Source: an uncultured Paracoccaceae bacterium | Lineage (GTDB): Bacteria > Pseudomonadota > Alphaproteobacteria > Rhodobacterales > Rhodobacteraceae | Direction: 5' to 3' | DNA length: 64,000 bases | Assembly (NCBI GenBank): GCA_947488175.1 | Contig: CANKYO010000003.1 | Location: forward strand, 434,001-498,000 | In this document: positions 12,798 to 28,517 of the stretch, in pieces | Position numbering within the stretch: position 1 is the first letter of the stretch | Layout: the number at the start of each line of letters is the position of its first letter | Position numbers and translations under genes: made by a program | Notes under the pieces: model-generated | What the model was told of the DNA's origin: nothing | The model's input: only the letters and a program-made list of their open reading frames with translations | Databases searched by the model: none

Positions 12798-14069
12798 TTA
12801 CGGCAGCAGAATATCCACCAAAGCCCCTGCCATCACCTTGGCGCTGTCGAGCATATCCTCAACCCTAACATATTCATCCGGCTTATGCGCCAGTTCCAGA
12901 ATCCCCGGCCCATAGGCGATGCAGTTTTTCAGTTTGCCGATCCGGTCGATATGTTTCTGGTCGTAGGTCCCGGGCGAGGCCACAAATTCCGCTGGTTTAC
13001 CGAGTACTTGCTCGATCTGCGCGGCCACGATCTGCACCACCGGCGCGTCCCGGTCGGTCATGCTGGGCAGGACCACGTTGATCTCGCGCAGGTCATAGTC
13101 GAACTTGTCGCGGCGGGCCTTGAGGTCTTCGAGCAGCTTTGTCACTTCGCCGCGCACATCGTCGATGTTTTCCTCTGCCAGAAACCGCCGGTCGATGACG
13201 ATCCGGCAACTATCCGGAACGCAATGGGCGGGCAAGCCGGTGTAGTCCGCATCCTGTTCCGGCTGGCCGCCATGGATGGAGTTGATGTTCATCGTCGATG
13301 ATCGCGCCCCTTCCGGCACCACGGGCATGTCGGTCGTGCGGGTGGCCATGGCGGGGTAGAGCTTGTCTTCGAATTCGGTCAGCACAGCACCCATATGGCG
13401 CACCGCGCAATCGCCCAGGAACGGCATGGAGCCATGGGCGATTTCGCCGAATGTCTCAATCTCTGCCCACCAGCCGCCGCGATGGCCAAGGCACACGCGA
13501 TCCTTGTTCAGCGGTTCCGGGATGATCACATGCTGCACGCGCTTAGGATCGAAATAGCCTTGTTCGGCCAGATAGGCGACGCCGCCATAGCCGCCGGATT
13601 CCTCGTCTGCGGTGCCGGAGATTTCGATGGCGCCCGCAAAATCAGGATGCGTTGCGACAAAGGCCTCGACGGCGATAATCGAGGCGGCAAGCCCACCCTT
13701 CATATCGCAGGCGCCGCGCCCGTAGATTTTCCCGTCGATCAGGTCACCGCCAAACGGGTCCGTCGTCCAGCCGGACCCGACCTCGACCACGTCGATATGG
13801 CTATTGAAATGCACGCAATCGCCTTTTGCGGTGCCTTCCCGTCGCGCCACGATATTCCAGCGCGGATATTTGTCGCTGTCGCCGGGGGTGCCGTGGGCGC
13901 GGATCAGCTCGGTCTGAAATCCACTGCCTTGCAGGCGTTTGTCCAGAAACTCGCAAATCTCGCGGTAGTTGTCGCCGGGCGGGTTCAGCGTTGGGATGCG
14001 GATCAGGTCCTGTGTCAGCGCGATCAGATCGTCGCGCCGGTCGGTAATGGCTTGGCTCAAGTCAGTCAT
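12798..14069 (-). CDS. M20 family ArgE/DapE-type deacylase
   Basis: A zinc-dependent amidohydrolase of about 423 residues that removes acyl groups from amino acids or related compounds. Family metal-site motifs appear in order: HFNSHIDVV (His and Asp), RGACDMKGG (bridging Asp), GTADEESGG (catalytic Glu-Glu), IIPEP, and the C-terminal ELAHKPDEYV (His). A dimerisation domain is inserted in the middle. The frame extends to 14177, but MTDLSQAITDRRDDLIALTQDLIRIPT at 14069 is a normal N-terminus. It is divergent from the hydantoinase gene, and both act on amide-type bonds. Confidence 0.9.
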   Translation of the reverse strand: MTDLSQAITDRRDDLIALTQDLIRIPTLNPPGDNYREICEFLDKRLQGSGFQTELIRAHGTPGDSDKYPRWNIVARREGTAKGDCVHFNSHIDVVEVGSGWTTDPFGGDLIDGKIYGRGACDMKGGLAASIIAVEAFVATHPDFAGAIEISGTADEESGGYGGVAYLAEQGYFDPKRVQHVIIPEPLNKDRVCLGHRGGWWAEIETFGEIAHGSMPFLGDCAVRHMGAVLTEFEDKLYPAMATRTTDMPVVPEGARSSTMNINSIHGGQPEQDADYTGLPAHCVPDSCRIVIDRRFLAEENIDDVRGEVTKLLEDLKARRDKFDYDLREINVVLPSMTDRDAPVVQIVAAQIEQVLGKPAEFVASPGTYDQKHIDRIGKLKNCIAYGPGILELAHKPDEYVRVEDMLDSAKVMAGALVDILLP

Positions 14070-14151
14070 GGCCTGACTATTGGCCAAGGAACGCATCGAC
14101 ACAATCGCCAAATCATGCATATCAGGGCGGGCAGGCAGCAGGGTTTTGGCG

Positions 14152-16149
14152 ATGGCGTTTCTTTTGGGTGTGGACACAGGCGGGACCTATACGGATGCCG
14201 TCGTGCTGGACGAAGCTGCGGACTGGGTTGTCGCATCGGCAAAGGCGCTGACATCGCGGCCTGATCTGGCAAATGGCGTTGGTGCGGCGATTGATGCAGC
14301 ACTTGGCCAGGCAGAGGTGTCGCCCGACCAGATTGCGATGGTGTCATTGTCGACCACATTGGCCACCAATGCGCTGGTCGAGGGACAGGGGGGCAAGGTC
14401 GCCCTGGTCGCCATCGGGTTCGATACGGCTGAGTTGGGGCGTGCCGGGCTGGCCGAGGCGCTGGGCAGTGATCCCGTGATCACAATTGCGGGCGGGCATC
14501 ATCATAGCGGAGATGAAAAGGCCCCGTTTGATCGGGCCGCTTTGACCACAGCGTTAGAGGCGTTGGAGGATGGTGTCACAGGCTTTGCCGTTGCAGGCAG
14601 CTTTGCTGCGCGCAACCCGGCGCATGAACTGGCGGCGCGTGATCTGATCCGCGAGTTTACAGGCAAACCGGTGACCTGCGGCCATGAGTTGTCGCAGGCT
14701 TTGGGTGGCCCCAAACGGGCGCTGACGGCGGTGTTGAATGCGCGCCTGATTGGCATGATTGATCACCTGATTACAGCCTGCGAGGGGCATCTGGCCTATC
14801 TGGGCATCACCGCCCCACTGATGGTGGTGCGAGGGGATGGGGCGCTGGTGTCTTCTGCCGTGGCCCGGGCAAAGCCGATTGAAACGATCCTGAGTGGCCC
14901 TGCCGCCTCGGTCGCCGGGGCCAACTGGCTGACCGGCATGAAAAACGCCATGGTCAGCGATATCGGTGGCACCACGACCGATATCTGCCTGCTGCGTGAT
15001 GGCAAACCGCTGATCGACCCGCAAGGCGCCCGTGTCGGACCCTACCGCACGATGGTCGAGGCTGTCGCGATGCGCACAACCGGGCTGGGCGGTGATAGCG
15101 AGGTGCATCTGACGGACGGTCTGGCAGGCGGACTGACATTGGGGCCACGTCGCGTCATGCCGATGTCGCTGGCGGCGACGGCGTATCCCGACCTTGTCCA
15201 TGATGCGTTGGACCGCGCCTTGGCGCAGGATGTGCCGCCGGTGGATGATGGGCAATTCGTGATCCCAGTCTGGGGGGATGCACCAACCGGGCTGGACCAG
15301 CGCGAGGCGCTGATCGTGGATCGGCTGCGCACCGGGCCGATGCGGTTGGGAGAAGCCGCGCAGAAGCGGTTCGAGATGGCGGCGCTGCGCCGATTGGTCA
15401 GCCGTGGTCTGATCATGCTGGCAGGGATCACCCCGTCGGATGCGGCCCATGTACTCGGTCGTCTTGATACATGGGATGCTGCAGCGGCGCGTAAGGCCTT
15501 GAGGCTGGCCGCCCGTCGCAGGACGGGTGCAGGTCAGCGTCTTGCTGCGGGGCCCGACATGATGGCCCAGATGATCGTTGATCAATTGACCGCACAGACC
15601 GTCGATTGCGTGATGCAGGCGGCCTTTGCCGAGGATGGTTGGGATGATCCGGCCACCCTTGCCCGGCATCCCTTGACCCATGCGGGGCTGGATCGGGGGC
15701 AAGGTTTGGTGAATGTGCAGATGTCGCTGGGCCTGCCGCTGATCGGGCTGGGGGCATCGGCCCATAGCTATTACGGGCCGGTGGGCGACAGGCTGGGAAC
15801 GCAGACAATCCTGCCCGACCATGCAGGTGTGGCCAATGCGATAGGGGCTGTTGTGGGACAAGTGGCGATGCATGTCAGCGGTTCGGTGACCAGCACGGGA
15901 CCTGGGGCTTTCGTGGCGCATCTGCCGGACGGGCCCGCCCGATATGACACCTCCGGCGCGGCCATGACAGCGCTGGAGGCAGCATTGCATCGGGAGGCCG
16001 GACGCAAGGCGCAGGCGTCGGGCGTTGATGAACCCCATTTTCGCGTTGAACGTGACGTGGCCGAGGCTGAAGTTGAAGGGCAGCAGATGTTCGTGTCAGC
16101 CCAGATCAAGGTGACAGCGGGTGGTCGCCCGCGCATCGCCCGCACATAG
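14152..16149 (+). CDS. hydantoinase/oxoprolinase family protein
   Basis: A 665-residue protein of the HyuA-like family, ATP-dependent enzymes that open hydantoin or 5-oxoproline rings. The first ATP-binding segment is GVDTGGTYTDAVVLDE near the N-terminus and the second is SDIGGTTTDICLL (about 268-280), both of the actin-like ATPase fold. The ATG at 14152 gives the canonical start MAFLLGVDTGGTYTD; an upstream ATG at 14080 in the same frame adds unrelated residues. No hyuB partner follows, so it may be a single-subunit form. It is divergent from the M20 deacylase. Confidence 0.88.
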   Translation: MAFLLGVDTGGTYTDAVVLDEAADWVVASAKALTSRPDLANGVGAAIDAALGQAEVSPDQIAMVSLSTTLATNALVEGQGGKVALVAIGFDTAELGRAGLAEALGSDPVITIAGGHHHSGDEKAPFDRAALTTALEALEDGVTGFAVAGSFAARNPAHELAARDLIREFTGKPVTCGHELSQALGGPKRALTAVLNARLIGMIDHLITACEGHLAYLGITAPLMVVRGDGALVSSAVARAKPIETILSGPAASVAGANWLTGMKNAMVSDIGGTTTDICLLRDGKPLIDPQGARVGPYRTMVEAVAMRTTGLGGDSEVHLTDGLAGGLTLGPRRVMPMSLAATAYPDLVHDALDRALAQDVPPVDDGQFVIPVWGDAPTGLDQREALIVDRLRTGPMRLGEAAQKRFEMAALRRLVSRGLIMLAGITPSDAAHVLGRLDTWDAAAARKALRLAARRRTGAGQRLAAGPDMMAQMIVDQLTAQTVDCVMQAAFAEDGWDDPATLARHPLTHAGLDRGQGLVNVQMSLGLPLIGLGASAHSYYGPVGDRLGTQTILPDHAGVANAIGAVVGQVAMHVSGSVTSTGPGAFVAHLPDGPARYDTSGAAMTALEAALHREAGRKAQASGVDEPHFRVERDVAEAEVEGQQMFVSAQIKVTAGGRPRIART

Positions 16150-16205
16150 CGATTCGGCGATCCACAGCCTGCGCAACCCTCTCAATTCACTAGATTTATC
16201 GTTAT

Positions 16206-16224
16206 TGTTTACGTATAGTAAACA
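16206..16224. promoter_or_regulatory. operator-like palindrome upstream of the protease/NTPase cassette
   Basis: Perfect 7-bp inverted repeat TGTTTAC-gtata-GTAAACA in an unusually AT-rich 140-base stretch, 70 bases upstream of the first cassette gene. TTTATCG, TATTTTTG and similar AT blocks nearby could be promoter elements. The spacing (TGT-N13-ACA) excludes a standard PpsR box. It probably binds a dimeric repressor or activator not encoded next door. Confidence 0.6.
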
Positions 16225-16293
16225 CAGCCATATTTTTGTGCTACACTCCGCGCAGCAATTTAAGCGAAGTCATTTTTAACGAGGAAATTAGTC

Positions 16294-17928
16294 ATGACAT
16301 TACGTGACGCGTATCAGGTATTGACGGCAAATGAGGCTGCGGCAGGCAGCGAGCCTATCATTATTGAGCTGGTCTTTACCGAACCTCAAAACCCCGCAGA
16401 GGTCGAAGCGCAGATAACAGAGCGGCTGCCCAATGCGCCCGTATCTGTCACGACAGCCTTTGGCGGCGATACCGATCAGTTTCTGTTTGCGGCCTTTGAG
16501 GGCATTCGCGAGCGCGGGCAAGAGCCTGAGATCTTCGCGCTTGCCCGCCAATTGCGCGCGGCACTCGACGCGCTGGAGGCGAACCCGGTTCTGACCGATA
16601 GTATCTATGGTGCGGCGGCTGTGGATGCGGCCACAGATGCCGAAAGCTTTGGCAATCTGTGTTCAACCGATCGGACGAACCTGCAGCCCTTTGGCTGGCC
16701 GCACAAGATCATCCATACCCCTCAGGCCTGGCGCAAAAGCCGGGGCCAAGGGGCGACCGTCGCCGTGATCGACACTGGTTATTCCACCCATCAGGAGCTG
16801 AATGGCGCGATCCGGCAGACCGATCAACTCAATCTGGTTGAAGGCGGTACGGATGCCCATGACAAGTTCAGCAGCGGTTTTCTGAAAAATCCTGGACATG
16901 GGACGTTGGTCTGCTCAGTCGTCGCTAGTCGCGGCGATGTGGATGAAGATGGCAATGTGGCCAATAACGGTGCTGTTGTCGGCTCTGCGCCAGAGGCCGA
17001 GATCCTGCCCATTCGCGCCATCAAGTCCGTTGTCAATTTCCGCCAGTCCACCCTGCCAAAGGCGATTGCCCATGCGATCAATCACGGGGCGGATGTGATT
17101 GCGATGGCGCTGGGCGGCCCCACCCGCGTCGCCTCAACCGAGCGGGCGCTGCGGATGGCCGCGGATGCCGGGCTTGTGGTTGTGTGCGCGGCTGGCAACT
17201 GCTGGCCAAAGGTGGTGTTTCCCGCCGCCTATGCCGCCAACGATATATGCACCGCGGTTGCCGCATTGACCCAGTCTTTGCAACCATGGGCCAAGTCAGG
17301 CCAGGGGCTGCAGGTGACCATCGCCGCCCCGGGTGAAAATGTCTGGGGGGCCGCCAAGAATGCGGCGACCGACCCTGACAATGGGGTGAAGGCGTCGCAA
17401 GGGACAACCCTTGCCACGTCGCTGACGGCGGGCGTGGCCGCCTGTTGGGTCGCCCGTCATGGGGGCCGTGCAGCACTGCGCGCCAAGGCGCAGGCGTCGG
17501 GAACAACAGTGCAGGCTTTGTTCAACAGCAGCGTGACCCATAACATTCAGAAACCTGCCGTCTGGAATGGATCAAACACGTTGGGGGCGGGCGTTGTGGA
17601 TGCGGAAAAGGCGTTGAATGCCCCGCTGGCACCGGGAACCGAGGCAGTGGCGGGCACGGTACCGGGCCCTGCCGGCGTGACATCGACGCTGGGTGTGCTG
17701 CAGACCCATCTGGCCAGTCATGATCCCGATGCGCTGGAGGATTTCGGCGCCGAACTGGCGGAATTTGCCGGCGAAATCCTATGGCTGTCACATCGTGCAG
17801 GCGCCAAGGCGCGGGCAGCCGAAAGTCTGGATAATGAGGCCGCCGTGGGTGCAAATCGCGCCAGTGATGAACTTGCTGCCGCACTGGCCGATAAACCGGT
17901 CCTGAAATCGGTACTTCGGACCCTTTAG
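16294..17928 (+). CDS. S8 subtilisin-like protein with Thr in place of the catalytic Ser
   Basis: A 544-residue protein, first gene of the cassette. Residues 1-150 form a non-catalytic N-terminal region without a signal peptide. The subtilisin core has Asp160 (AVIDTGYS), His202 (GHGTLVCS) and the oxyanion Asn302 (AAGNCW). The segment that normally reads GTSMA is GTTLA, so the expected nucleophile position is Thr372. The C-terminal 80 residues are helical (about 465-544) and may contact partners. The protein is either a catalytically dead S8 sensor or scaffold, or an unusual Thr-dependent protease. The next cassette gene begins eight bases after its stop, so the genes are co-transcribed. Confidence 0.85.
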   Translation: MTLRDAYQVLTANEAAAGSEPIIIELVFTEPQNPAEVEAQITERLPNAPVSVTTAFGGDTDQFLFAAFEGIRERGQEPEIFALARQLRAALDALEANPVLTDSIYGAAAVDAATDAESFGNLCSTDRTNLQPFGWPHKIIHTPQAWRKSRGQGATVAVIDTGYSTHQELNGAIRQTDQLNLVEGGTDAHDKFSSGFLKNPGHGTLVCSVVASRGDVDEDGNVANNGAVVGSAPEAEILPIRAIKSVVNFRQSTLPKAIAHAINHGADVIAMALGGPTRVASTERALRMAADAGLVVVCAAGNCWPKVVFPAAYAANDICTAVAALTQSLQPWAKSGQGLQVTIAAPGENVWGAAKNAATDPDNGVKASQGTTLATSLTAGVAACWVARHGGRAALRAKAQASGTTVQALFNSSVTHNIQKPAVWNGSNTLGAGVVDAEKALNAPLAPGTEAVAGTVPGPAGVTSTLGVLQTHLASHDPDALEDFGAELAEFAGEILWLSHRAGAKARAAESLDNEAAVGANRASDELAAALADKPVLKSVLRTL

Positions 17929-17936
17929 GGTGTACC

Positions 17937-19700
17937 ATGACCAACGCGCTGACAGCTGATGCATTGCGTCCTCACTTGGCGACCAGGCCCGGCCTGATCA
18001 AAGAGGCCTTGGCCGTGATCTATGCCGGTGACGCGCGCAATCTGAGCATGGACGCCATTGCCGTGCAGGCCGATCTGACCGGTCAGGATCAGGCCACACT
18101 GCTGGTGACCAGTCTGGAAAAGCACGGGACAGATGGTGAATTCGCCGCTTTCCTGCAGGGCCGTGGCGTGGCGTTGACATCGTTTGACGATCTGCTGAAC
18201 GGGCTGGCGCAGGGCCCTGATGAGGGTGCGGTGGATCATGCTGATCTGGCCGATTTCGCCACCCGCAGCCACGCATTTCGGTGCCGGATCAAGGTGGGTG
18301 GGCAGGTGATGGGGAGTGGCGCGCTTGTCTCGCCCCGGCTGGTCCTGACGGCGGCCCACGTGATTGAGGCGGCGCTGGACCCGGCGAATGCCATCAAGGT
18401 TGAGGTGATTGCCTCTGATGCGCATAGCTATCCTGCACGCAAAGTCTTTGCACTGCCGTGTCATCCGGACGAACATGGCGGCGCCCTGCCCCCGGCCGAT
18501 CAGGCCGCGGATCATCTGGATGTGGCTTTGCTGCGGGTCGATCCGCCCCTTGGCCGCTGGTACAGCCATGTGAAGCTGCCCAACCCGGTGAGCCATTGGA
18601 ATGGTCATGAACGGTTTTTTCTTGTGCATTTTCCCAATGGGATCGAAAATGGATTGGCCATTGGCGATATCACCCGCAACGACCTGGCCGAGATCCGGGT
18701 GCCCCATAATGCCCAGGCTGATGAAGGATCGTCGGGCGGGCCGGGATTTAGCGGGAATTTTGAGTTTCTGGGCATTCATCAAGGCCGCCTTGGCCCGTTC
18801 CGCCGGATCGTCCCCTATGATCTGATTGCCGCAAACGATGCGTTTCAAGAAGCGCTGAAATCCGACCAGCCACCGCAATATCTGTGGTCGTTGGATGGGA
18901 CACTGGACAGCCATGTGGTGATCGGGCGCGGCAAGTTCTTTGATGCCATCACCGCCATGGTCGAAAACGACCCGCCCAGCCTGCGCGGTATCTGGGTCCG
19001 TCGGATGGATCCGGAGGTGACGACCGGACTAAGTTTCAGCCACGATCTGCTTGACCAGTTTTTACGCGCCAGCAGCGCCGACTACAGCATTCTGCGTATT
19101 CCGATGGATCTGGGGGTCACCGATCTGGTGAAACATATCAACCAGATCGCGGCTGCGGGCGACGCCCCGGTTGCGGCACAGGGTGTGGCCGATGGCCAGA
19201 CCACCGATGTGGCCCATGACGATGACCGGGTGCGCCGTTTGGTCGACCGGCTGGATGCAGTAGCGGATGCGGCAGGTGAAACCACCTGGGTTTATATCGA
19301 CAATCCGCCCACCGGATTGCTGGCCGAGACCCAGGTGCAGCTTGAACATTTCGTGCAGGCGGCCATGACCCGCCCGCATCTGCGGCTGGTGATCGCGGGG
19401 TATGAAACCTTTGGTCTCGTCAACGCGCTGAGCACCGAAGTTGCCGATGCCCGCCGCATGACACGACCCAATCTGATTGTGGAGGAGTTGAAGAATGTCA
19501 CAATAGACGACGTCAAGCTGAGCATCGCCGAAATGGCGCGCGCGCTGGGTCTGGCGTGGTCGCCGGACGTCGTTACCTTTATTGCCAAACGTGCGGTCCA
19601 AGGTGTGGAGACGACATTGGGTCATTTCTTTGACCCCAAGCATTTCAGGAAAATCTCGGACGTGATCCGGGACGAAGCGCGGCGGAGTATCGGCCAATGA
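17937..19700 (+). CDS. trypsin-like serine protease with N-terminal adaptor and STAND-like domain lacking a P-loop
   Basis: A 587-residue cytosolic protein in three parts. Residues 1-85 are a small helical domain (LSMDAIAVQADLTGQDQATLL) resembling effector-associated domains of bacterial conflict proteins. Residues about 110-300 are a chymotrypsin-fold protease with an intact triad: His141 (LTAAHV), Asp195 (LDVALLRV) and Ser266 (GSSGGP). Residues about 320-587 look like an NTPase fold: the position of a P-loop reads VRRMDPEVTTG with no GK[ST], but a Walker B-like strand VYIDN (about 450) and a sensor-like LVIAG are present. It overlaps the NTPase start by four bases. Domain naming is by eye. 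Confidence 0.82.
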   Translation: MTNALTADALRPHLATRPGLIKEALAVIYAGDARNLSMDAIAVQADLTGQDQATLLVTSLEKHGTDGEFAAFLQGRGVALTSFDDLLNGLAQGPDEGAVDHADLADFATRSHAFRCRIKVGGQVMGSGALVSPRLVLTAAHVIEAALDPANAIKVEVIASDAHSYPARKVFALPCHPDEHGGALPPADQAADHLDVALLRVDPPLGRWYSHVKLPNPVSHWNGHERFFLVHFPNGIENGLAIGDITRNDLAEIRVPHNAQADEGSSGGPGFSGNFEFLGIHQGRLGPFRRIVPYDLIAANDAFQEALKSDQPPQYLWSLDGTLDSHVVIGRGKFFDAITAMVENDPPSLRGIWVRRMDPEVTTGLSFSHDLLDQFLRASSADYSILRIPMDLGVTDLVKHINQIAAAGDAPVAAQGVADGQTTDVAHDDDRVRRLVDRLDAVADAAGETTWVYIDNPPTGLLAETQVQLEHFVQAAMTRPHLRLVIAGYETFGLVNALSTEVADARRMTRPNLIVEELKNVTIDDVKLSIAEMARALGLAWSPDVVTFIAKRAVQGVETTLGHFFDPKHFRKISDVIRDEARRSIGQ

Positions 19701-22700
19701 TGCAGGAATTGTCCCTTCAGGTGCAGGCCATGCTGGATATCGCCCGTCTGTCGGCAGCGCTTCAGAAGCGGTTTCGCCCGGCCGATCTGATGGCCGAGGT
19801 GACGCAAGGGGCTGATCTGTCTGATCCTGTTTTGATGATCGACGTTCTGTCCTTGTTGCGCGAGGATTGTGTTGTTGACGGCGATCACTGGATCATGCGC
19901 CCCAGCCCCCGGCGCAAGGTTCTCGCGGCTGAAAAGGGCCGTACAGGGCTTGGCGTTGGCACGACGCTCACACCGGTGCAACAGGCGCTTGAGGGGGCGG
20001 GTGACTTTGAACCCGCCAGACTGGATGCCCTGATGGCTGAACCGGGTGATACCGATCTTGCAGCACTGGCGGCAACGCTGGATCAGGCGGGACCCAATGC
20101 GCCTGCCTATGAACAGCTTGTCGCCCTGCGCGCTGCATTGAACGGCCAGAAACAATCGCGTCGCAATGATGAGATATTGGAAAAAGGCTTCTTTGGCCGC
20201 GAAGAAGCCTTGCGCGATCTGGCGGATTGGTTGGCCCATCCGCAACAGAAACAACCCTTGCGCAGTTGGCACATCTCGGGTCTGCCGGGGATCGGCAAAT
20301 CCTATCTGTTGGAAAAGGTGATCCAGTCTGCCCGACTGGCCCATAAACCGATCCTGATCCGGCTGGATTTTGATCGCGCAGCACTGGATGTCCTGAACCC
20401 ATACGCGCTTTTTGAAGAGATATCGCGCCAGATAGCCGATGCCGTGCCTGCCGCTGCACCGGAACTACGCCAGCTTCGCCAGCAGAGCGCGGCAGAGCGT
20501 CTGGAGTCCCGCCCGGCCACCAAGATGCGCCAACTGCCCCGCAAACTGTTGCGCGGATTGGCGGCGGTCGCCAATGACAGCGCCCGCACGGTTCTGTTTG
20601 TCCTTGATACGCTTGAAGTGCTGCGCAGCCGGGGTGAGACCCACATCATTACCCTGTTCGAACATCTTGATCTGCTATTGGACTACGGGATGCAGCGGGT
20701 CACGGTGATTTCGGCTGGCCGCGGTGACGCACTGGCCCCGGCCCCGCGGCGTATGAAAGAACACACGGCGCTCAGCGGGCTGGAAGATTGGGCAGCAGAG
20801 GCATTGCTGAAAAGACGGGGGGTCAAGCCAGCTCTTTGGCCGCGCATCCTGCCGCTGGCCAAGGGCAACCCGCTACTGCTGACGCTTGCCGGACGCGCGT
20901 TATCAGAAGAAGGTATCAGCACCGACGATCTGCCGGATGAAGCGGATGTCACGACCGTTGGTGGATATCTCTACCGGGCAATCCTGTCGCGGGTGCCCAA
21001 AGATCTGCGGGCCGTTGCCAATCAGGGTTTGACATTGCGGGCCATCAATCTCGAAACCCTGCAAAACGTTGTTGCACCGCCCTTGGGTCTTGAGATGACC
21101 GATGCCGTCGCCGCCGACATGCTGGAGACGCTGGCAACCCATCATTGGCTGGTCGAACGGGACAACGCGGGCTGGATCTGCCACCGCAGCGATGTGCGGG
21201 CGGCCTTCCTGCCGTTGATCTATGCCGATGATCCGCAAACCATGGCCGCGATCAACCGGGCCGCAGTGACATGGTTTGAGAGCCGCGATCCGGTGCAGGC
21301 CCTTTATCACCGGCTGCAATTGATGCGCGCGGGCGATCCGGCACCCGAAGTCAATCCGACGGATGCCGCGGCATTCACTCAGCCAATGCTAGATGATCTG
21401 CCAGATCTGGCGCGTGATCTGGTGTTGCAGGCGCAAGGCAACCGCTCCGATTTCGGGCGGGCAGAGGCGCCGCTTGATTTGGCGCAATTTGATGATGCAT
21501 TGTTTGAGGATCTGGGTGTGCGGTCCCCTGCGCAAGATGCCCGGTCGACCTTTGATGCGCCAGATCCGTTTGCACCTGTCGCGCCAGAGTCACAAGCGCC
21601 AGTCCCGTCGAGCGGCACCATTGCCTGGTCGTCAAAGTTCGACCGACTGATCTTTAACGCACCCGGGACTGTCCGAACGCCAGATAAACGTGCCCAGACC
21701 GACTTGCACATGATGCTGGAACGCGGCGATGTGCGCGAGGCGCAGTATATCGTTGAGGAAAGCTTTGGCGCGCCGTTCCCTATTACGTCCGACGCCGCCA
21801 TCCTTGTGATCTGTCAGCAATGGCTGGCTGGCCGGTGGAGCGCGGTTGAGCGTCTGTGGCCCACAATGGGGTTCGATGTCTTGGCCCGCGTCCTTGGTGA
21901 TAAGGATCATGTGCGTGGCCGTCTGATGCTTGAAATCGCAGCAGAGTTCGATTTTGACGCTTTGGTCGATGCGATCCGCGATCAGGCGCTTTCGGATTTC
22001 GGCATCGATCTGATCCAGAACCCGCCCGGCTTTGGGATGGCAAGGGGTGCGCTGGATTTTGCGCTGCTGGTCGCCCGTGGTCGCTTTGTACCCATCGACC
22101 GCACCATTGGCCACGTGGCACATCTGATGGAACCATCAGAGCCTGAGGCGGGGCGCGCCGCCGTCTATGACGCCGACAGATTGCGAAGCCGGACGGGCGT
22201 CGACATCGATGAAAGCGCATATTCCCGGATCTATGCCGTCATGCCGCTGAACCCCTATGGCAGTTTTCTGGCCGCCCGCGCCCCGTTGTTCGGGGTGCTG
22301 CAGGAGGCGGAGGATAGGCCCGACATCGCACAGGTTGCGCGCTTGTTTGCACCGGGTCTGACACGGTGGGAGTTTCTGTCGGACACGATCCTGCCGGGCA
22401 TCGCCGACAAGATCGACGTGGCCGAAGGGTTGGGGTTAACTGCCGAATTTGCCGGAGGGCTGACAGCCTATCACCGGTTGCCCGATCTGCCGCTGATCGC
22501 CGCCGCGGCGGAGCGTTGGCGGCGGACAGTTGCCGGGGTTTGGTCCTACGGGTCCGCTGCGCCAGAGGGTTGGACAGGTCAGGTGGCGGGTACGGATGAC
22601 GGTGCGGTGGCCCTCATGGATCACCTTCTGGCAGATGCCAATCCGGTCGAACAGGCGCGCGCCGCCTTCACCGCCTGGATGCCCGATGACGGCGATGCAG

Positions 22701-22891
22701 CCCGCCTCGTCCGCAGATATGGCAGGCGATACAATACAGTGATGAGCGCAGATTTGCCGGAGGCTGCGGACAGCCCGCGCGCCGCAGTGCTGGAGGCGTA
22801 TAAACACCTGACCAAGGCCGATTTGCCCATGGTCGTCGCAGCCCCGCTCGCCATTCTTGCCGCGCACCAATTCAATCTCGACCGTATTTGA
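19697..22891 (+). CDS. large STAND-like P-loop NTPase
   Basis: A 1064-residue protein and the probable sensor/switch of the cassette. The N-terminal 90 residues could be a winged-helix-like adaptor. GFFGREE (about 171) leads into the NTPase with Walker A GLPGIGKS (Lys201), Walker B VLFVLDTLE (Asp304) and a sensor-like TVISAG; a winged-helix-like segment follows to about 450. The remaining 600 residues are helical and acidic, consistent with a solenoid that senses a trigger. STAND NTPases oligomerise on recognising a ligand and activate attached or partner effectors. No enzymatic effector is fused here, so the co-encoded proteases and nuclease are the obvious outputs. It overlaps the preceding gene (ATGA). 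Confidence 0.85.
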   Translation: MMQELSLQVQAMLDIARLSAALQKRFRPADLMAEVTQGADLSDPVLMIDVLSLLREDCVVDGDHWIMRPSPRRKVLAAEKGRTGLGVGTTLTPVQQALEGAGDFEPARLDALMAEPGDTDLAALAATLDQAGPNAPAYEQLVALRAALNGQKQSRRNDEILEKGFFGREEALRDLADWLAHPQQKQPLRSWHISGLPGIGKSYLLEKVIQSARLAHKPILIRLDFDRAALDVLNPYALFEEISRQIADAVPAAAPELRQLRQQSAAERLESRPATKMRQLPRKLLRGLAAVANDSARTVLFVLDTLEVLRSRGETHIITLFEHLDLLLDYGMQRVTVISAGRGDALAPAPRRMKEHTALSGLEDWAAEALLKRRGVKPALWPRILPLAKGNPLLLTLAGRALSEEGISTDDLPDEADVTTVGGYLYRAILSRVPKDLRAVANQGLTLRAINLETLQNVVAPPLGLEMTDAVAADMLETLATHHWLVERDNAGWICHRSDVRAAFLPLIYADDPQTMAAINRAAVTWFESRDPVQALYHRLQLMRAGDPAPEVNPTDAAAFTQPMLDDLPDLARDLVLQAQGNRSDFGRAEAPLDLAQFDDALFEDLGVRSPAQDARSTFDAPDPFAPVAPESQAPVPSSGTIAWSSKFDRLIFNAPGTVRTPDKRAQTDLHMMLERGDVREAQYIVEESFGAPFPITSDAAILVICQQWLAGRWSAVERLWPTMGFDVLARVLGDKDHVRGRLMLEIAAEFDFDALVDAIRDQALSDFGIDLIQNPPGFGMARGALDFALLVARGRFVPIDRTIGHVAHLMEPSEPEAGRAAVYDADRLRSRTGVDIDESAYSRIYAVMPLNPYGSFLAARAPLFGVLQEAEDRPDIAQVARLFAPGLTRWEFLSDTILPGIADKIDVAEGLGLTAEFAGGLTAYHRLPDLPLIAAAAERWRRTVAGVWSYGSAAPEGWTGQVAGTDDGAVALMDHLLADANPVEQARAAFTAWMPDDGDAARLVRRYGRRYNTVMSADLPEAADSPRAAVLEAYKHLTKADLPMVVAAPLAILAAHQFNLDRI

Positions 22892-22909
22892 ACACAAAGG
22901 AGATTTCAG

Positions 22910-24850
22910 ATGACCGATGACCGCGCCATTTCCCGGCTGGAACGTCTTGGCACAACAGGTGCGCTGGACAAGGTAAAGGCCGCACTGGACAAGGCCCCGC
23001 CCATTCTGGACGAATTTGGGTTCAGTGCAGATGCCGTGCGCGCCGCCCTTGGTACTCGTTTCGATCAGTTGGAAAGCGTAGGCATGCGCGCATCGCAACT
23101 TGAGGCAATTGTGCGGGCTGTAGGGCGCCCGCCGCTGATCGTGCGCAACGGCAAGATCGAAGGCACGATGGCGCTGGCCGACGATTTTGATGCTGGCATT
23201 AGCGGAAGGATCGCGGCGGTTGAACCCTTTGTCGGATCGGTCGGGCGGATCGAATTCATCAACCACGACATGGCCTGGGGCGGGACCGGCTGGGTGATCG
23301 AGGATGACGGTACTACGATGCTGATCGCCACCAACCGGCATGTGGCCAAGCTGGTGGCGCGGCGCACGGCCAATGGCGATGGGACTTATATGTTCAGCCC
23401 GGCCTCTGTCCGATATGGCGCGCGGATTGATTTCGGGGAAGAGGCTGACGTGCCCCCTGATCCTACACGCGTGCTGAAGATCGAGAAATTCACCTATCTA
23501 GCCGATGACGCCGCCGCCGATGTGGCCATTGCCCGCGTCACCCGGCCCGATGCGGGTGTGCCGATCGGCGCGCTGCCGCTGGCCGCCAATGATGGCGATG
23601 ATCAGGAAACAGTGGCCGTTGTGGGTTATCCAGCTTCTGACCCGTTCCGCAACGATCCGACCGAGATGCAGACTTATTTCAAAGATATCTACGATGTGAA
23701 ACGCTTTGCCCCCGGTTTCCTGCGGGTGCAGGACACGCTGGGCATTCTGGGCCATGACTGCACGACGCTGGGCGGCAATTCCGGATCGCCGGTGATCAGC
23801 CTTGAGCAAAAAGGCGTTGTTGGGCTGCATTTTGCTGGCACCTATGGGGTGGGCAATAGTGCTGTGCGGGTCAGCACGCTGAAGGGTTTGCTGGATCAGA
23901 CAACAACTGTTGTGCCCGTTCCCGATGAGGTGGCGGCGGTTTTCGAGGATCCGACCCATGACGCTTCCCATTTCGCGGGTCGCGAAGGGTATGACCCGAA
24001 CTTCCTGCGCGTCGTGAGCGTGCCGTTACCAACCATTCCGGATGCGCTGGATCTGGCGAAACCCAGCGACGCGACGGCAGAGCGCCCGCACGAGCTGCGC
24101 TATCAGCATTTTGGCGTGCTTTATAGTCTGGCCAAGAAAGGCCCGGTGATTGCTGCACTCAATATCGACGGCGACCAGACAAGGCGGATCAAGCGCAGCA
24201 ATTCGCGCTGGTGGAAGGATCTGCGCATTCCGGCGGACAAACAGCTGGGCCGTGACGATTATGATGATCCTGTGATTGATCGCGGGCATATGGTGCGCCG
24301 GGCCGCCACGAATTGGGGGCCGGATGTCGAGACGGCCAAGAGAGCCAATCTGGACAGTTTTCATTATACGGCGGCCAGTCCGCAGCATGAGGGGCTGAAC
24401 CAGAATACAGCGACCTGGCTGGGTCTGGAAGATCACATCATGGATAATGTGCGCACCTTCGGGTTCCGGGCCAATGTGTTTACCGGACCCGTCTTTTCGG
24501 ATGATGATCCGCCACTGGGTGACAGCGGCGCACCCATCCCGCTGCATTACTTCAAGGTGGTAACGATGCTGGCGGAAGATGAAAACGCCACTCTTCGCCT
24601 GCACGCAACGGCCTATGTCCTGAGCCAGGGGCAGTTGATCCAACAACTCTTGCTGGATCAGGGTCTGGCAGCAGCGGTTGAGGGGTTCACCTTCGGCGCA
24701 TTCCGCACCTTTCAGGTGCGTATCGACGATCTGGAAGCCATGACCGGGTATGATTTTGGCCCACTGCGCGATGCCGATCCATTGGCAAAACCGGACGAGG
24801 CGCCCGTGCGGGTGCAACCGCTGGACCGTTTGGAACAGATCAGACTGTAA
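22910..24850 (+). CDS. trypsin-like protease fused to a DNA/RNA non-specific endonuclease
   Basis: A 646-residue two-enzyme fusion, last gene of the cassette. Residues 1-110 are helical and acidic. Residues about 115-340 form a V8/trypsin-like protease with His144 (NRHVAK), Asp204 (ADVAIARV) and Ser291 (GGNSGSP). Residues about 375-640 form a NUC (Serratia/NucA-type) nuclease with the DRGH motif at 457-460 (catalytic His460) and the downstream metal-site pattern SPQHEGLNQN...WLGLED. No signal peptide is seen, so it would cut nucleic acid inside the cell. An AAAGGAGATTT ribosome-binding site precedes the ATG, 18 bases after the NTPase stop. The nuclease may be held inactive until proteolysis; this is inferred. 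Confidence 0.88.
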   Translation: MTDDRAISRLERLGTTGALDKVKAALDKAPPILDEFGFSADAVRAALGTRFDQLESVGMRASQLEAIVRAVGRPPLIVRNGKIEGTMALADDFDAGISGRIAAVEPFVGSVGRIEFINHDMAWGGTGWVIEDDGTTMLIATNRHVAKLVARRTANGDGTYMFSPASVRYGARIDFGEEADVPPDPTRVLKIEKFTYLADDAAADVAIARVTRPDAGVPIGALPLAANDGDDQETVAVVGYPASDPFRNDPTEMQTYFKDIYDVKRFAPGFLRVQDTLGILGHDCTTLGGNSGSPVISLEQKGVVGLHFAGTYGVGNSAVRVSTLKGLLDQTTTVVPVPDEVAAVFEDPTHDASHFAGREGYDPNFLRVVSVPLPTIPDALDLAKPSDATAERPHELRYQHFGVLYSLAKKGPVIAALNIDGDQTRRIKRSNSRWWKDLRIPADKQLGRDDYDDPVIDRGHMVRRAATNWGPDVETAKRANLDSFHYTAASPQHEGLNQNTATWLGLEDHIMDNVRTFGFRANVFTGPVFSDDDPPLGDSGAPIPLHYFKVVTMLAEDENATLRLHATAYVLSQGQLIQQLLLDQGLAAAVEGFTFGAFRTFQVRIDDLEAMTGYDFGPLRDADPLAKPDEAPVRVQPLDRLEQIRL

Positions 24851-24946
24851 TATGTCAAAATCCCCTGTGACGCTCACTTTCGTGTCACCGGAATTGCTTC
24901 GTTACCGCGCATGGGCCACAAGGCTTGAAACCTTGGATACCGCCCC

Positions 24947-25555
24947 ATGCTCGACCGCCATGCCCGCCAGTTGATTGATCCACCGCTGAACCAGATCGGT
25001 AGCGGTCTGGCGGCGCGGGGGTTCACGGCCAATGGGGTGACGCTGATTGGCTTGGGGCTGGGCCTGCTCGCTGCTGCGTTCATCGCGCTGGGCTGGCCAC
25101 TGCTCGCCCTAGTGCCGCTGCTCGCCAGCCGCATTGCCGATGGACTGGACGGGGCGGTGGCGCGCGCCACCCGCAAGACCGACTTTGGCGGCTATCTGGA
25201 TATCGCCGCTGATTTCCTGTTCTATGGGGCCATCCCGCTGGCCTTTGTGCTGAACGATCCGGTGACCAACGGGGCAGCGGGGGCGTTTCTGCTGGCCTCA
25301 TTCTATTTCAACGGCACCAGCTTTCTGGGCTACGCCATTCTGGCGGAAAAGCATGGGTTGAAGACGGACGCGCAAGGGCAAAAATCGCTCTATTACTCCA
25401 ACGGCATTCTAGAGGGGACAGAGACCATCGTGTTCTTTGTCATCCTCTGCCTGTTCCCCGCATATTTCGCAGTTCTATCGTGGATCTTTGGCATCTTGTG
25501 CTTTGCCACGGCGACACTGCGGATATATGCCGCAAAACAAATCTATACCGAGTAA
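24947..25555 (+). CDS. CDP-alcohol phosphatidyltransferase family protein
   Basis: A 202-residue integral membrane enzyme with the diagnostic CDP-alcohol motif DGLDGAVAR...GGYLDIAAD (about 64-88), which binds Mg and the CDP-diacylglycerol head group. About five hydrophobic helices surround it. Such enzymes swap CMP for an alcohol such as glycerol-3-phosphate, serine, inositol or choline to make phospholipids. The 202-residue size and GGYLD variant fit an uncharacterised bacterial subgroup, so the alcohol is not assigned. It is 12 bases from the ynjB-like gene downstream and 96 bases from the nuclease fusion upstream. Confidence 0.88.
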   Translation: MLDRHARQLIDPPLNQIGSGLAARGFTANGVTLIGLGLGLLAAAFIALGWPLLALVPLLASRIADGLDGAVARATRKTDFGGYLDIAADFLFYGAIPLAFVLNDPVTNGAAGAFLLASFYFNGTSFLGYAILAEKHGLKTDAQGQKSLYYSNGILEGTETIVFFVILCLFPAYFAVLSWIFGILCFATATLRIYAAKQIYTE

Positions 25556-25567
25556 AGGAAAGCTCAC

Positions 25568-26767
25568 ATGAAACATCTTGCCGTTCTGGCCGCCCTGTTG
25601 GCTCCGGTGCCTGCGCTGGCCGATATTGACGTGACCAATTGGGATGCCGTCGTGGCCGAAGCCGATGGACAGACCGTCTATTGGAACGCCTGGGGCGGAT
25701 CGACGACCACCAATGATTTCATCGCCTGGGTCGGTGACCGGGTGGCCGAGGAGTACGGCGTGACCCTGGAACATGTGAAGCTGACCGATACCGCCGATGC
25801 TGTCACCCGCGTCCTGTCCGAAAAGCAGGCGGGCGAGGATGAAGACGGCGCCATCGACATGATCTGGATCAACGGTGCCAACTTTGCGGCGATGAAAGAG
25901 GCTGATCTGCTGTTTGGCCCTTATGCCGAGCAGCTGCCGAACTGGGCGCTTGTCGATACTGAAGGTAAATCCGTACAAACCGATTTCACCGTGCCGACCG
26001 AAGGCTTTGAAAGCCCATGGGCCATGGCGCAGGTTGTGTTTGATTATGACACCGCCGATCTATCAGAGCCGCTTGCTTCCATGCAGGAAATACTAGACTG
26101 GACCGCCGCCAACCCCGGCCGCTTTACCTATCCACAGCCGCCGGATTTTCTGGGTACCACGTTTCTGAAACAGGTTCTGGTGGATATTCTGCCTGATCCG
26201 TCCGTTCTGTCCGAACCGGCTACCGATGAGAACTATGACGAGGTGACCGCCCCGCTTTGGGCCTATCTGGACGAGCTGACGCCAAACCTCTGGCGCGCGG
26301 GACAGGCCTATCCCCCCACCGGAACAGCCATGTTCCCGCTGATCGCTGACGGGGAACTGGACCTGTCAATTTCGTTCAGCCCCGGCGCGGCGTCGACGGC
26401 GATTGCCAATAACGAACTGCCGGACACCGTGCGCACCTTTGTGTTGGACAAGGGCACCATCGGGAATGCGTCCTTCGTTGCGGTGCCTTACAATTCCGGG
26501 TCCAAGGCGGGTGCCATGGTCGTTGCCAACTTCCTGATGTCGCCAGAGGCACAGGCCCGTGCGCAGGATCCGGCCATTCTGGGCTATGGCACCGTGCTGA
26601 ACATGGACGCGTTGACGCCAGAGGACCGGGCGCTGTTTAACGCGCTGGATCTGGGCATCGCCACGTTGACGCCCGCTGAGTTGGGCACCGTTCAGGCAGA
26701 ACCGCACCCAAGCTGGATGACGCGCATCGCCGATGACTGGATGACGCGCTATGGCGTCGCGCAGTAA
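25568..26767 (+). CDS. ynjB: ABC transporter substrate-binding protein, YnjB family
   Basis: A 399-residue periplasmic protein. The signal peptide MKHLAVLAALLAPVPALA is followed by a mature region containing YWNAWGGSTTTNDFIAWV (about 38-55), DMIWINGANFAAMKEADLLFGP (about 98-119) and a late SPEAQARAQDP, all typical of the YnjB group of binding proteins. The complete YnjBCD order follows, with similar lengths to the E. coli system. The ligand of YnjBCD is not established. A GGAAAGCTC ribosome-binding region precedes the ATG. Confidence 0.85.
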   Translation: MKHLAVLAALLAPVPALADIDVTNWDAVVAEADGQTVYWNAWGGSTTTNDFIAWVGDRVAEEYGVTLEHVKLTDTADAVTRVLSEKQAGEDEDGAIDMIWINGANFAAMKEADLLFGPYAEQLPNWALVDTEGKSVQTDFTVPTEGFESPWAMAQVVFDYDTADLSEPLASMQEILDWTAANPGRFTYPQPPDFLGTTFLKQVLVDILPDPSVLSEPATDENYDEVTAPLWAYLDELTPNLWRAGQAYPPTGTAMFPLIADGELDLSISFSPGAASTAIANNELPDTVRTFVLDKGTIGNASFVAVPYNSGSKAGAMVVANFLMSPEAQARAQDPAILGYGTVLNMDALTPEDRALFNALDLGIATLTPAELGTVQAEPHPSWMTRIADDWMTRYGVAQ

Positions 26768-26788
26768 TCCGTCCGATGCTGGCGAAAC

Positions 26789-26815
26789 GCGGTCCCGGGT
26801 CTGACCCGGGACCGC
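26789..26815. repeat. stem-loop between ynjB and ynjC
   Basis: Perfect 12-bp stem GCGGTCCCGGGT / ACCCGGGACCGC with a three-base loop, in the 55 bases between the binding-protein gene and the permease gene. There is no U-tract, so it is more likely an mRNA-stabilising or partial attenuation structure than a full terminator. Confidence 0.7.
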
Positions 26816-26822
26816 GACCTTC

Positions 26823-28517
26823 ATGAAAACCCGCCGGTTTCCACCCGCCCTGCCGATCCTCACGCTTTTGGCGATGTTGGGTCCGGTCGCAGCGGGCTTG
26901 TGGGGGACGTTCTTGCCCGCCTTTGGGCATCTGCCTGCGGCCGGGCTCAGCGGTCCGTCGCTTGCGCCATTTCGCGACCTTTTCGACTGGGCCGGGTTGC
27001 CCCGTGCGATGCTTTTATCCATCAGCACAGGGATCATCGCGACTTCGGTCTCCTTGGCCATCGTCATGCTGGTTACCGCAGGGTGGTCAGGCACGCGACC
27101 CTTTCGGGTGCTGGAGCGGCTGCTGTCGCCCTTGCTGTCCGTGCCGCATGCCGCCGCTGCCTTTGGCCTTGCCTTCCTGATTGCCCCATCCGGCTGGATC
27201 GCCCGCCTGCTGTCACCGGGTTTAACAGGGTGGGAGCGCCCACCGGACCTGCTGATCGTGCAGGACAGTTGGGGTCTGACCATGACAGTTGGCCTGATCG
27301 TGAAAGAGGTGCCGTTTCTGTTGCTGATCACGCTCGCCGCCTTGGGGCAGGCTGATGCGCAGCGCAGCGTGACGATCTCGCAGGCCCTTGGATATGGCCG
27401 TTTGACGGGATGGCTGAAAACCGTGTTCCCGCGGGTCTATGCGCAGATCCGACCGCCGATCTATGTGGTGCTGGCCTATTCGATGTCCGTGGTGGATGTG
27501 GCCGTGATCCTTGGCCCGAACACGCCGCCGACGCTTTCTGTCCAGATCGTCAAATGGATGTCCGATCCTGATTTGGCCATGCGCCTGACCGGGGCTGCCG
27601 GTGCCTTGCTGCAGCTGGCACTGGTCATCGGGGCACTGGCGTTCTGGCGATTGGGTGAAATCGTGGCGGCACATGTCGGGCGTCGATGGATTGCGGCGGG
27701 CCGCCGTGGCAGGCTGGATGTCGTCACGGCGCATGTGGCATTGGGCCTTGGTGCGGCTTCGGCGCTGGCTGTGCTGCTGGGACTGGTGGTGCTGGCCATC
27801 TGGTCCCTTGCCGGGTTCTGGGGTTTCCCCGATGCGTTCCCCGACCAATTCACATTCCGCAACTGGATGCGCTTTGGGCCCGGTACGCTTGAGGCACTGG
27901 GGGAGACCGCTTTGATCGCCATTGTCGTCGCCGGTGTCGCCCTGATCCTGACCATTGGCTGTCTTGAGGCCGAGTATCGCCACGGCCTGCAATTCAGCCA
28001 ACGAGGCGTGTGGTTGTTGTATCTGCCCTTGCTGATCCCGCAGACGGCATTCCTGCCGGGCCTGCAAACCCTGATGCTGAATATCGGGGCGGATGTCGGA
28101 CGGTTGCCCGTGATGCTGGCCCATCTGGTCTTTGTGCTGCCTTACGTATTCCTGTCGCTGGCCGATCCGTTCCGGGCCTGGGATACCCGGATGGGCACCA
28201 TTGCCGCAGCCTTGCGGGCCAGCCCGAATGGGGTCTTGTGGCGGGTACGCCTGCCGATGCTGCTGCGTCCGATCCTGACAGCGCTGGCGGTCGGGCTGGC
28301 GGTATCTGTGGGCCAGTATCTGGCGACGTTGTTGATTGGCGGTGGCCGGGTTGCCACGCTGACTACAGAGGCTGTGGCGCTGGCGTCGGGCGGTGATCGC
28401 CGGGCCATCGGAGTTTACGGTTTGATGCAGACAGGGGCAGCGCTGGTGCCCTTTGCCCTGGCGCTGCTGATCCCGGCGGTTGTGTGGCGTAACAGAAAGG
28501 GGCTTCGCCATGGATAA
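26823..28517 (+). CDS. ynjC: ABC transporter permease, YnjC family (two fused permease halves)
   Basis: A 564-residue inner-membrane protein with about 12 hydrophobic helices arranged as two similar halves (about 1-285 and 300-564). This matches binding-protein-dependent permeases of the YnjC/ThiP type, in which one chain replaces a permease dimer. Cytoplasmic coupling loops are visible near 190-205 (SQALGYGRLTGWLKTVFP) and 455-475 (AALRASPNGVLWRVRLP). The ynjD start overlaps its last codons by eight bases. Confidence 0.85.
   Translation: MKTRRFPPALPILTLLAMLGPVAAGLWGTFLPAFGHLPAAGLSGPSLAPFRDLFDWAGLPRAMLLSISTGIIATSVSLAIVMLVTAGWSGTRPFRVLERLLSPLLSVPHAAAAFGLAFLIAPSGWIARLLSPGLTGWERPPDLLIVQDSWGLTMTVGLIVKEVPFLLLITLAALGQADAQRSVTISQALGYGRLTGWLKTVFPRVYAQIRPPIYVVLAYSMSVVDVAVILGPNTPPTLSVQIVKWMSDPDLAMRLTGAAGALLQLALVIGALAFWRLGEIVAAHVGRRWIAAGRRGRLDVVTAHVALGLGAASALAVLLGLVVLAIWSLAGFWGFPDAFPDQFTFRNWMRFGPGTLEALGETALIAIVVAGVALILTIGCLEAEYRHGLQFSQRGVWLLYLPLLIPQTAFLPGLQTLMLNIGADVGRLPVMLAHLVFVLPYVFLSLADPFRAWDTRMGTIAAALRASPNGVLWRVRLPMLLRPILTALAVGLAVSVGQYLATLLIGGGRVATLTTEAVALASGGDRRAIGVYGLMQTGAALVPFALALLIPAVVWRNRKGLRHG

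Follow-up and report, generated by a model that had tools for sequence, protein, structure and literature searches.

What do four adjacent genes for peptidases, an NTPase, and a nuclease do together in a bacterium, and is their combination a new one? This question is raised by a locus in a window of 64,000 nucleotides (the whole stretch of DNA that was analyzed) from an uncultured Paracoccaceae bacterium (GenBank assembly GCA_947488175.1, contig CANKYO010000003.1, positions 434,001 to 498,000 of the forward strand; positions below are those of the window). The original prediction, made from the letters and a list of their open reading frames (ORFs), described a four-gene cassette with its own promoter and proposed that it might be a new defense system in which a proteolytic cascade releases a nuclease. 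The four genes, named here A to D, are indeed intact ORFs on the + strand in the order described, forming one tightly packed run: A and B are 8 bp apart, B and C overlap by 4 bp, and 18 bp separate C from D. They encode proteins of 544, 587, 1064, and 646 aa, respectively. B, C, and D are full-length homologs of the LypABC proteins, with the same gene order and domain plan, while A is a subtilase-fold protein, seemingly new to such systems, with a threonine in the place of the catalytic serine. Homology and genomic context make it likely, with a probability of roughly 0.64, that this LypABC-type trio and A together constitute an anti-phage suicide switch.

B, C, and D are LypABC homologs

LypABC of Caulobacter crescentus is a CARD-NLR-type system, a bacterial relative of the animal NLR immune systems, and is needed for the lysis mediated by gene transfer agents (GTAs) in this species (Banks et al., 2026; PMC13236601). 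LypA comprises a CARD-like bundle of helices at its N-terminus, a trypsin domain, and an ATPase domain devoid of Walker residues; LypB is an NLR-like ATPase, and LypC joins a trypsin to an endonuclease. Lysis requires S262 and T356/S360/F361 of LypA, K230 and D335 of LypB, and S296 of LypC (PMC13236601). The same three proteins are found here in the same order. B (17937–19700, +) contains a helical N-terminal bundle (helices 7–16, 18–28, 38–48, 52–63, 66–75, and 83–87 in the structure model), an HtrA-like trypsin domain (His141, Asp195, Ser266; Pfam Trypsin_2, 1.9e-13), and a STAND-like domain without P-loop, as in LypA. C (19697–22891, +) is an NLR/STAND ATPase (AAA_16, 9.8e-14) with the Walker A Lys201, the Walker B Asp304, and a fast-diverging C-terminal half. 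D (22910–24850, +) combines a trypsin (His144, Asp204, Ser291; Trypsin_2, 4.6e-15) with a NucA-like Endonuclease_NS domain (His460, Asn497; 1e-39). The residues that had been singled out in advance (Lys201 of C, Ser266 of B, Ser291 and His460 of D) were all chosen correctly.

A direct comparison was made with L079, a C. crescentus-like locus from a sample taken as Caulobacteraceae. It encodes a 592-aa LypA with S262, T356, S360, and F361, a LypB with K230 and D335, and a 662-aa LypC with S296, H471, and N505; these numbers fit every LypABC residue of PMC13236601, one start codon per protein having been chosen to fit and the rest having followed. The identity between the window and L079 is 33% for B (562 aligned residues), 31% for C (1110), and 50% for D (627), and all nine LypABC residues that had been mutated in Caulobacter are identical here (S266, T362, S366, and F367 of B; K201 and D304 of C; S291, H460, and N497 of D). 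Given the full-length match and these nine residues, B, C, and D are of the LypABC type by direct comparison.

The P-loop-less domain of B was rightly recognized by the original prediction. The motif GxxxxGK[ST] is absent from B and from all 59 homologs listed, of which 56 span the P-loop site and three do not; the trypsin triad of His141, Asp195, and Ser266 is complete in 59/59 of them. The lost P-loop site (residues 356–368; 19002–19040, +) holds Thr362, Ser366, and Phe367, the counterparts of Thr356, Ser360, and Phe361 of LypA, in which the same degenerate pocket is still required for lysis (PMC13236601). Among more distant relatives the site reads GPKESGKS in L092 and GPDHAGKT in L090, is partial in L083, and is missing in L020; since some of them keep an intact P-loop, its loss in B is most likely derived and was conserved thereafter. 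These relatives are also better evidence of a STAND kinship than the hhalign comparison of this domain with the STAND domain of C, which was not significant (score 19.3, P 0.12), yet aligned the P-loop and Walker B places of both.

Lys201 and Asp304 of C are found in 95/95 aligned sequences, that of the window included. Between the closely related cassettes L028 and L044, the ratio of nonsynonymous to synonymous substitution rates (dN/dS) is 0.11 for A, 0.16 for D, 0.22 for B, and 0.42 for C, and identity amounts to 66% for C and 95% for A. Within C it is 50–55% in residues 601–700 and 801–1000 and 82% in residues 701–800, a pattern that, in this single pair (L028/L044), fits a sensor under changing pressure. 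As for D, regular expressions found the nuclease motif D[RK]GH in 32 of 35 frames, the exceptions being L001, L006, and L032 (cut by its contig end), and the serine motif of the trypsin in 33, all but L029 and L043; two repeated loci, L009 and L015, are counted among these frames. With the six peptide patterns used, D was detected in no viral contig.

Several loci show variants of this layout. The A-carrying plasmid of Paracoccus sp. MA (L001:9992-11968) encodes a D protein that has lost the DRGH nuclease motif and has intact trypsin residues. In Falsiroseomonas algicola (L031:6935-11995), C and D form one 1687-aa frame, an NLR joined to a trypsin-nuclease, and trypsin and nuclease domains are also carried by 4 of 106 C homologs. 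A Rhizobium etli plasmid (L007:6922-12601) encodes trypsin proteins, one of which, according to the record annotation, has a phospholipase D-like domain in place of the D nuclease, possibly an effector swap.

With regard to the novelty of the combination, the original prediction did not know of it, and this reading is upheld only in part: B-C-D corresponds to LypABC/CARD-NLR (PMC13236601), and both the NucA-peptidase kind of system and its predicted cascade are found in section 32 of PMC7159879. The CARD-NLR systems of Lysobacter and Azospirillum (Wein et al., 2025), compared here only by their description in PMC13236601, are anti-phage systems composed of a trypsin-like protein with a CARD, an NLR-like ATPase, and a death effector; in Lysobacter the effector is a gasdermin, and none was recognized here. 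LypABC differs from the cassette in that the main text of PMC13236601 contains no subtilase term and A was not found within 19 kb around L079; moreover, the cassette is rare in its genus and has an AbiV gene 3.4 kb away. The System 3 NucA-peptidase conflict systems, predicted by Kaur et al. (2020; PMC7159879, section 32) and called 'NucA-trypsin' in PMC8195603, resemble it in their alphaproteobacterial core of trypsin and NucA (present here according to Pfam), in the S8 peptidases and STAND NTPase of some members, and in the predicted proteolytic cascade. In System 3, however, S8 is located within the nuclease polypeptide and trypsin, bDLD2, and STAND are fused, whereas S8 and STAND are separate genes here; section 32 mentions neither a Thr-for-Ser change nor a P-loop-less partner (PMC7159879). 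The cascade itself gains in credit, being the kind of relay proposed for these relatives (PMC7159879), and lysis by LypABC depends on peptidase as well as ATPase residues (PMC13236601).

No EAD family, an optional feature of System 3 in the form of EAD1, appears among the Pfam matches of A to D at E-values up to 0.1, and the suggested EAD link finds no backing at this threshold. Pfam includes models of EAD domains. The nuclease-protease pairs of Hachiman, AVAST, Lamassu, DRT, and canu also use a protease-triggered nuclease in phage defense, but theirs is an MBL-fold protein encoded by a separate gene (Tuck et al., 2025; PMC12799240), whereas D is an Endonuclease_NS fused to its own trypsin. 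No MBL domain was found in A to D by Pfam (E up to 0.1), and the cassette thus departs from the pattern of Avs1, HamMAB, Lamassu, and canu, in which the gene of an MBL-fold nuclease precedes a trypsin joined to a defense enzyme. PADLOC 2023, which predates the CARD-NLR paper, gave only partial matches for B, C, and D and none for A; those of B and D (LmuA, Avs1b, nacht, and RT-Protease_XI) reach E-values of 4e-11 or weaker and lie in trypsin-bearing parts. NCBIfam gave only matches under its curated cut-offs, and none for C.

A subtilase fold with threonine at the nucleophile position

A (16294–17928, +; Peptidase_S8, 4.5e-26) has a prodomain at its N-terminus, followed by an S8 domain and, C-terminally, a helical region. 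In its structure model (predicted local distance difference test score 92.3; predicted template-modeling score 0.94), the prodomain is of the subtilisin type (residues 20–100; 16351–16593, +), with the order beta-alpha-beta-beta-alpha-beta, and the best Foldseek match of the model is unprocessed pro-subtilisin E. Asp160, His202, and Asn302 are kept, but Thr372 (codon 17407–17409, +) stands where subtilases have the nucleophilic serine, as judged from alignments of homologs and solved subtilases; it sits at the serine of AK.1 protease and thermitase. The canonical Asp-His-Ser triad is thus incomplete. Of the three protease folds originally proposed, B and D have the full serine-protease triad and A does not. 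Among the best 120 of 246 homologs, Thr372, Asp160, His202, and the oxyanion Asn302 are each invariant (120/120). The Thr372 codons of ten loci are ACC, ACG, or ACT, all one base change away from serine; the invariance of threonine in spite of this proximity suggests that it is kept by selection.

The S8 relatives that are fused to LypC-type proteins are informative in this sense. In 3/3 of them, with the layouts trypsin-NucA-S8 (L020 and L083) and S8-trypsin (L092), the serine is intact, so threonine is probably the derived state, and the Ser-to-Thr change resembles a tuning-down. The stand-alone A proteins of L090 and L091, from the Caulobacteraceae sample, have threonine again; that of L090 lies tail to tail with an opposite-strand trio that encodes, in this order, a trypsin without nuclease, a LypA-like, and a LypB-like protein. 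An apparent intermediate form of the system is seen at L092:7441-15406 (genome G154), where a LypA-like protein that keeps its P-loop intact and a LypB-like STAND protein come after the S8(Ser)-trypsin fusion.

In the subtilase fold threonine is usually a poor nucleophile, and we know of no catalytic use of threonine in it. A search of titles and abstract openings, to which Wein et al. (2025) was out of reach, returned neither a Thr-for-Ser subtilase nor an S8 subunit in LypABC/CARD-NLR systems. According to this literature, A appears to be a subtilase-fold member new to them. A role is suggested by its fold, by the one altered active-site residue, and by the fact that its relatives are naturally fused to D-type proteins: capped by its prodomain, A would be a latent subtilase, slow or inert on general substrates owing to the Ser-to-Thr change, and would gate a relay formed by the trypsins of B and D, either by binding D or B or through a single self-cut upon prodomain removal. 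This gating is the least certain step of the proposed mechanism and should be regarded as tentative, somewhat short of an even chance. The nearest precedent for an altered subtilase steering a protease cascade is CspC. In the Csp subtilases of Clostridioides difficile (the protease CspB and the pseudoproteases CspC and CspA), a prodomain-bearing altered subtilase controls a protease relay, much as proposed for A; two triad residues are gone in CspC and CspA (PMC6636752) and only one in A, and the comparison is one of function, no kinship being claimed.

This precedent invites a different view, in which A is a pure pseudoprotease, a scaffold or ligand sensor like CspC that performs no chemistry. 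The conserved loss of one nucleophile and the prodomain retained in the model would be expected of such a protein, CspC and CspA exemplify it (PMC6636752), and B offers a parallel in its conserved P-loop loss, with a pocket that LypA still needs (PMC13236601). Nevertheless, Asp, His, and Asn should drift in a scaffold and none of them does among the best 120 of 246 homologs, which leaves this view somewhat unlikely. The same invariance, now including Thr372, speaks for the opposite possibility, namely that A is a true Asp-His-Thr protease and the executioner that LypABC lacks: B or D would remove the prodomain and A would degrade the proteins of the cell. A changed one triad residue where the pseudoprotease CspC lost two (PMC6636752), and the lytic effector of LypABC is unknown according to its authors (PMC13236601). 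Such an executioner is quite unlikely, considering the general weakness of threonine as a nucleophile in this fold, the serine kept in the three fusions, which makes the change a probably derived one, and the occurrence of B-C-D without A.

Insertion, distribution, and surroundings of the cassette

The cassette, including the promoter region and the four genes, spans positions 16150–24853 (+) according to a comparison of the corresponding gap across the genus, its exact ends being judged by eye: the left one lies past the stop of a hydantoinase-like gene and the right one at or just past the stop of D. The flanking genes, identified by Pfam as this hydantoinase-like gene and a CDP-alcohol phosphatidyltransferase gene, are on one contig and strand in 52 of 56 genus genomes searched. 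In the 51 other genomes the gap between them measures 63–155 bp (44 genomes), 248–645 bp (four), or 1341–1602 bp (three), while it reaches 8800 bp in the genome of the window, the only one of the 52 with the insertion at this site. Because the flanks are adjacent across the genus and the sequence 3′ of the D stop resembles the short intergenic region of the genus relatives, the cassette is interpreted as a clean insertion between two core genes. Near-identical homologs carry names from Yoonia and kin of Roseobacter, which suggests a host within the Rhodobacterales that is close to Yoonia. No integrase or transposase was noticed beside it, although no search was aimed at them, and an Rfam scan of 14000–27000 gave no match. 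At the same site, the flanks are 1.3–1.6 kb apart in three genus genomes (G101, G293, and G306; loci L053, L054, and L055), where other inserts may be present.

The promoter of its own that had been attributed to the cassette is sustained only in its AT-richness: the 108 bp ahead of A (16186–16293) have 35% GC, compared with 60% for the window, and a scan for sigma-70-type sites over 15900–25100 found none before A. Its one site is on the - strand inside A, and shuffled sequences lead to an expectation of 3.1. A perfect 19-bp inverted repeat with 7-bp arms and a 5-bp gap (16206–16224), the only perfect copy in its genome, is a possible operator, although this role is a guess; as an operator shared among cassettes it was rejected, since in eight further cassettes with A it was not found in the 260 bp that precede the approximate start of this gene. 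As claimed for the four proteins, none contains a signal-peptide-like or membrane stretch by Kyte-Doolittle hydropathy (no signal-peptide program was run); the highest 19-residue mean is 1.55 across A to D and 1.01 near the N-termini.

Two peptide patterns derived from the D profile, when searched against genome contigs, yielded a sample of 25 loci. B-C-D occurs in order in 18 of them, spanning alpha- and betaproteobacteria; of the remaining seven, two (L024 and L027) are cut by contig ends and five (L033, L034, L043, L045, and L046) have neither B nor C. Five of the 25 loci (L023, L028, L032, L035, and L044) have A immediately before B, and A is also seen there on the Paracoccus plasmid and in two further genomes from the family of the window; the contigs of L030 and L042 end too early to judge its presence. 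L042 and L041 are nearly identical B-C-D contigs in metagenome-assembled genomes titled Niveispirillum and Asticcacaulis, respectively, one of which is probably misbinned. In a plasmid search, D matched 105 records, and the seven that were opened comprised one A-B-C-D, one B-C-D, and five with neither.

Among 292 genomes of the order, C has matches at E up to 1e-3 in seven and strong ones only in G000, G111, and G227; A has matches at 1e-60 in five; again G000, G111, and G227 are the strong ones, and the matches in G150 and G154 are S8 domains of fused proteins. In a sample of the class, A and B each occur at strict cut-offs in 1 of 385 genomes, that of the window itself. In the Caulobacteraceae, the family of L041, B occurs in 6 and A in 2 of 199 genomes, and these are different ones. 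In a tree of 28 B proteins a single change explains the presence of A, and 0 of 500 shuffles give so low a number. Both the co-occurrence expected by the original prediction (ordered B-C-D in 18 of 25 loci, strong A and C in the same three of 292 genomes) and its expectation of a patchy, non-housekeeping spread (1 of 52 genus genomes at this site) were therefore borne out.

The neighborhood of the relatives was surveyed with PADLOC in a flank set of 95 ORFs from 19 B-C-D loci, hand-picked from 162 predicted ORFs with a minimum length of 120 aa and excluding the near-copies L044 and L042 and short ORFs; of 170 matched families 25 were listed, 20 of the 95 proteins were also scanned singly, and no significance is claimed. 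Four of the 19 loci have a complete known defense system no more than 10 kb away from B-C-D: Burkholderia L036 has Hachiman (0.6 kb downstream), Novosphingobium L038 has Gabija (0.4 kb downstream), Sphingomonas L040 has IetAS, and the Paraburkholderia plasmid L003 has CBASS, the last identified from the record annotation and PADLOC cyclase and effector families. An AbiU-like gene is present at L039. In a rough control drawn from the window's own genome (seven stretches of 20 kb), 95 of 99 ORFs matched 63 PADLOC families; the matches listed (25 families) are mostly single common genes, such as RtcR-like, PD-T4-6-like, and BrxHI-like helicase genes, with no complete system among them. The window also contains, in a stretch of lower GC, a HEPN_AbiV gene (5.7e-24; 12070–12780) that lies 3.4 kb ahead of the cassette and may be a second defense insertion.

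A proposed suicide switch and its competing explanations

The proposed switch would operate as follows. C would bind a phage-linked trigger through its fast-evolving C-terminal half, bind ATP, and oligomerize. It would then gather B by pairing its N-terminal domain with the helical bundle of B, in the way in which LypA and LypB are reported to associate through the helical bundle (CARD) of the former and the N-terminal domain of the latter (PMC13236601). The P-loop-less domain of B may serve as a nucleotide-sensing regulatory module rather than as a motor. Once activated, the trypsin of B would form a relay with that of D, processing D and further targets under the control of A, and the cell would be killed by the D nuclease and/or by another lytic effector. 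Sensing, recruitment, trypsin relay, and death are all modeled on LypABC and on the protease-activated nucleases of PMC12799240.

Several observations weigh against this reading. The surveyed relatives with defense genes nearby (L036, L038, L040, L003, and L039) all lack A, and in the A-carrying loci L001, L017, L018, L023, L028, and L032 no complete system was recognized among the matches listed, with five proteins scanned singly. The anticipated proximity to defense genes is hence seen, in the form of complete systems, for several B-C-D relatives, all of them without A, and the restriction of complete systems to A-less loci slightly lowers the confidence in a suicide switch. At L091 (6621-10275), a Thr-type A adjoins a Peptidase_S41 gene with no B-C-D within the 20 kb fetched, which speaks against a strict dependence of A on the trio. 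The A-carrying branch of the B tree has a support of only 59/89, so that a single origin is weakly backed, and a fold search with the whole of B was filled by HtrA-like and other trypsin-fold proteases, with no CARD or STAND structure among them, and is thus uninformative on both. LypABC itself serves GTA release and lies outside defense islands, and the endonuclease residues of LypC are dispensable for lysis in Caulobacter; LypC of Caulobacter endophyticus even has no endonuclease (PMC13236601). Together with the loss of the nuclease motif in L001, this dispensability speaks against the nuclease as the sole killer, and its portrayal as the clear effector in the original prediction is not supported in that form.

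The role of LypABC in Caulobacter leads to a further explanation, according to which the cassette controls GTA lysis and not phage defense. B-C-D is directly homologous to a system required for GTA-mediated lysis (PMC13236601). Moreover, no complete defense system was recognized beside the A-carrying cassettes, among the matches listed. GTAs are commonly carried by the Rhodobacterales. On the contrary, strong C and A in 3 of 292 order genomes and the insertion in 1 of 52 genus genomes are far rarer than expected of a general GTA release factor, GTA release in Rhodobacter capsulatus relies on a holin-endolysin (PMC13236601), and A-less relatives are located near phage defense systems and are present in betaproteobacteria and on plasmids. 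GTA control is for these reasons improbable. As to housekeeping or extracellular proteolysis genes that are neighbors by chance, S8 and trypsin-like peptidases are common, but the hydropathy of the proteins, the single insertion in a conserved site, the gene order kept across alpha- and betaproteobacteria, the natural fusions, and the finding of A or B in 1 of 385 class genomes at strict cut-offs make this explanation almost negligible; a widespread presence as syntenic single-copy genes, which would favor it, is not seen in the order and class samples.

The suicide switch thus remains the likeliest account of the cassette, and its interest goes beyond this genome. According to the Discussion of PMC13236601, neither how LypABC is activated nor which effector causes lysis is known, and a conserved fourth subunit with one altered active-site residue offers a direct handle on both the activation of CARD-NLR/LypABC systems and their way of killing. 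A bolder and unlikely version is that the A family represents natural Asp-His-Thr subtilases, locked by their prodomain and effectively single-turnover, which act as the fourth subunit of a bacterial NLR protease relay, the cut of the prodomain by a trypsin partner committing the cell to death; if true, this would be a bacterial counterpart of the zymogen commitment steps in animal cell-death cascades. If A keeps its chemistry with threonine, it would bring new enzymology to family S8; if it does not, it would be a further subtilase pseudoenzyme controlling a protease cascade, beside CspC and CspA.

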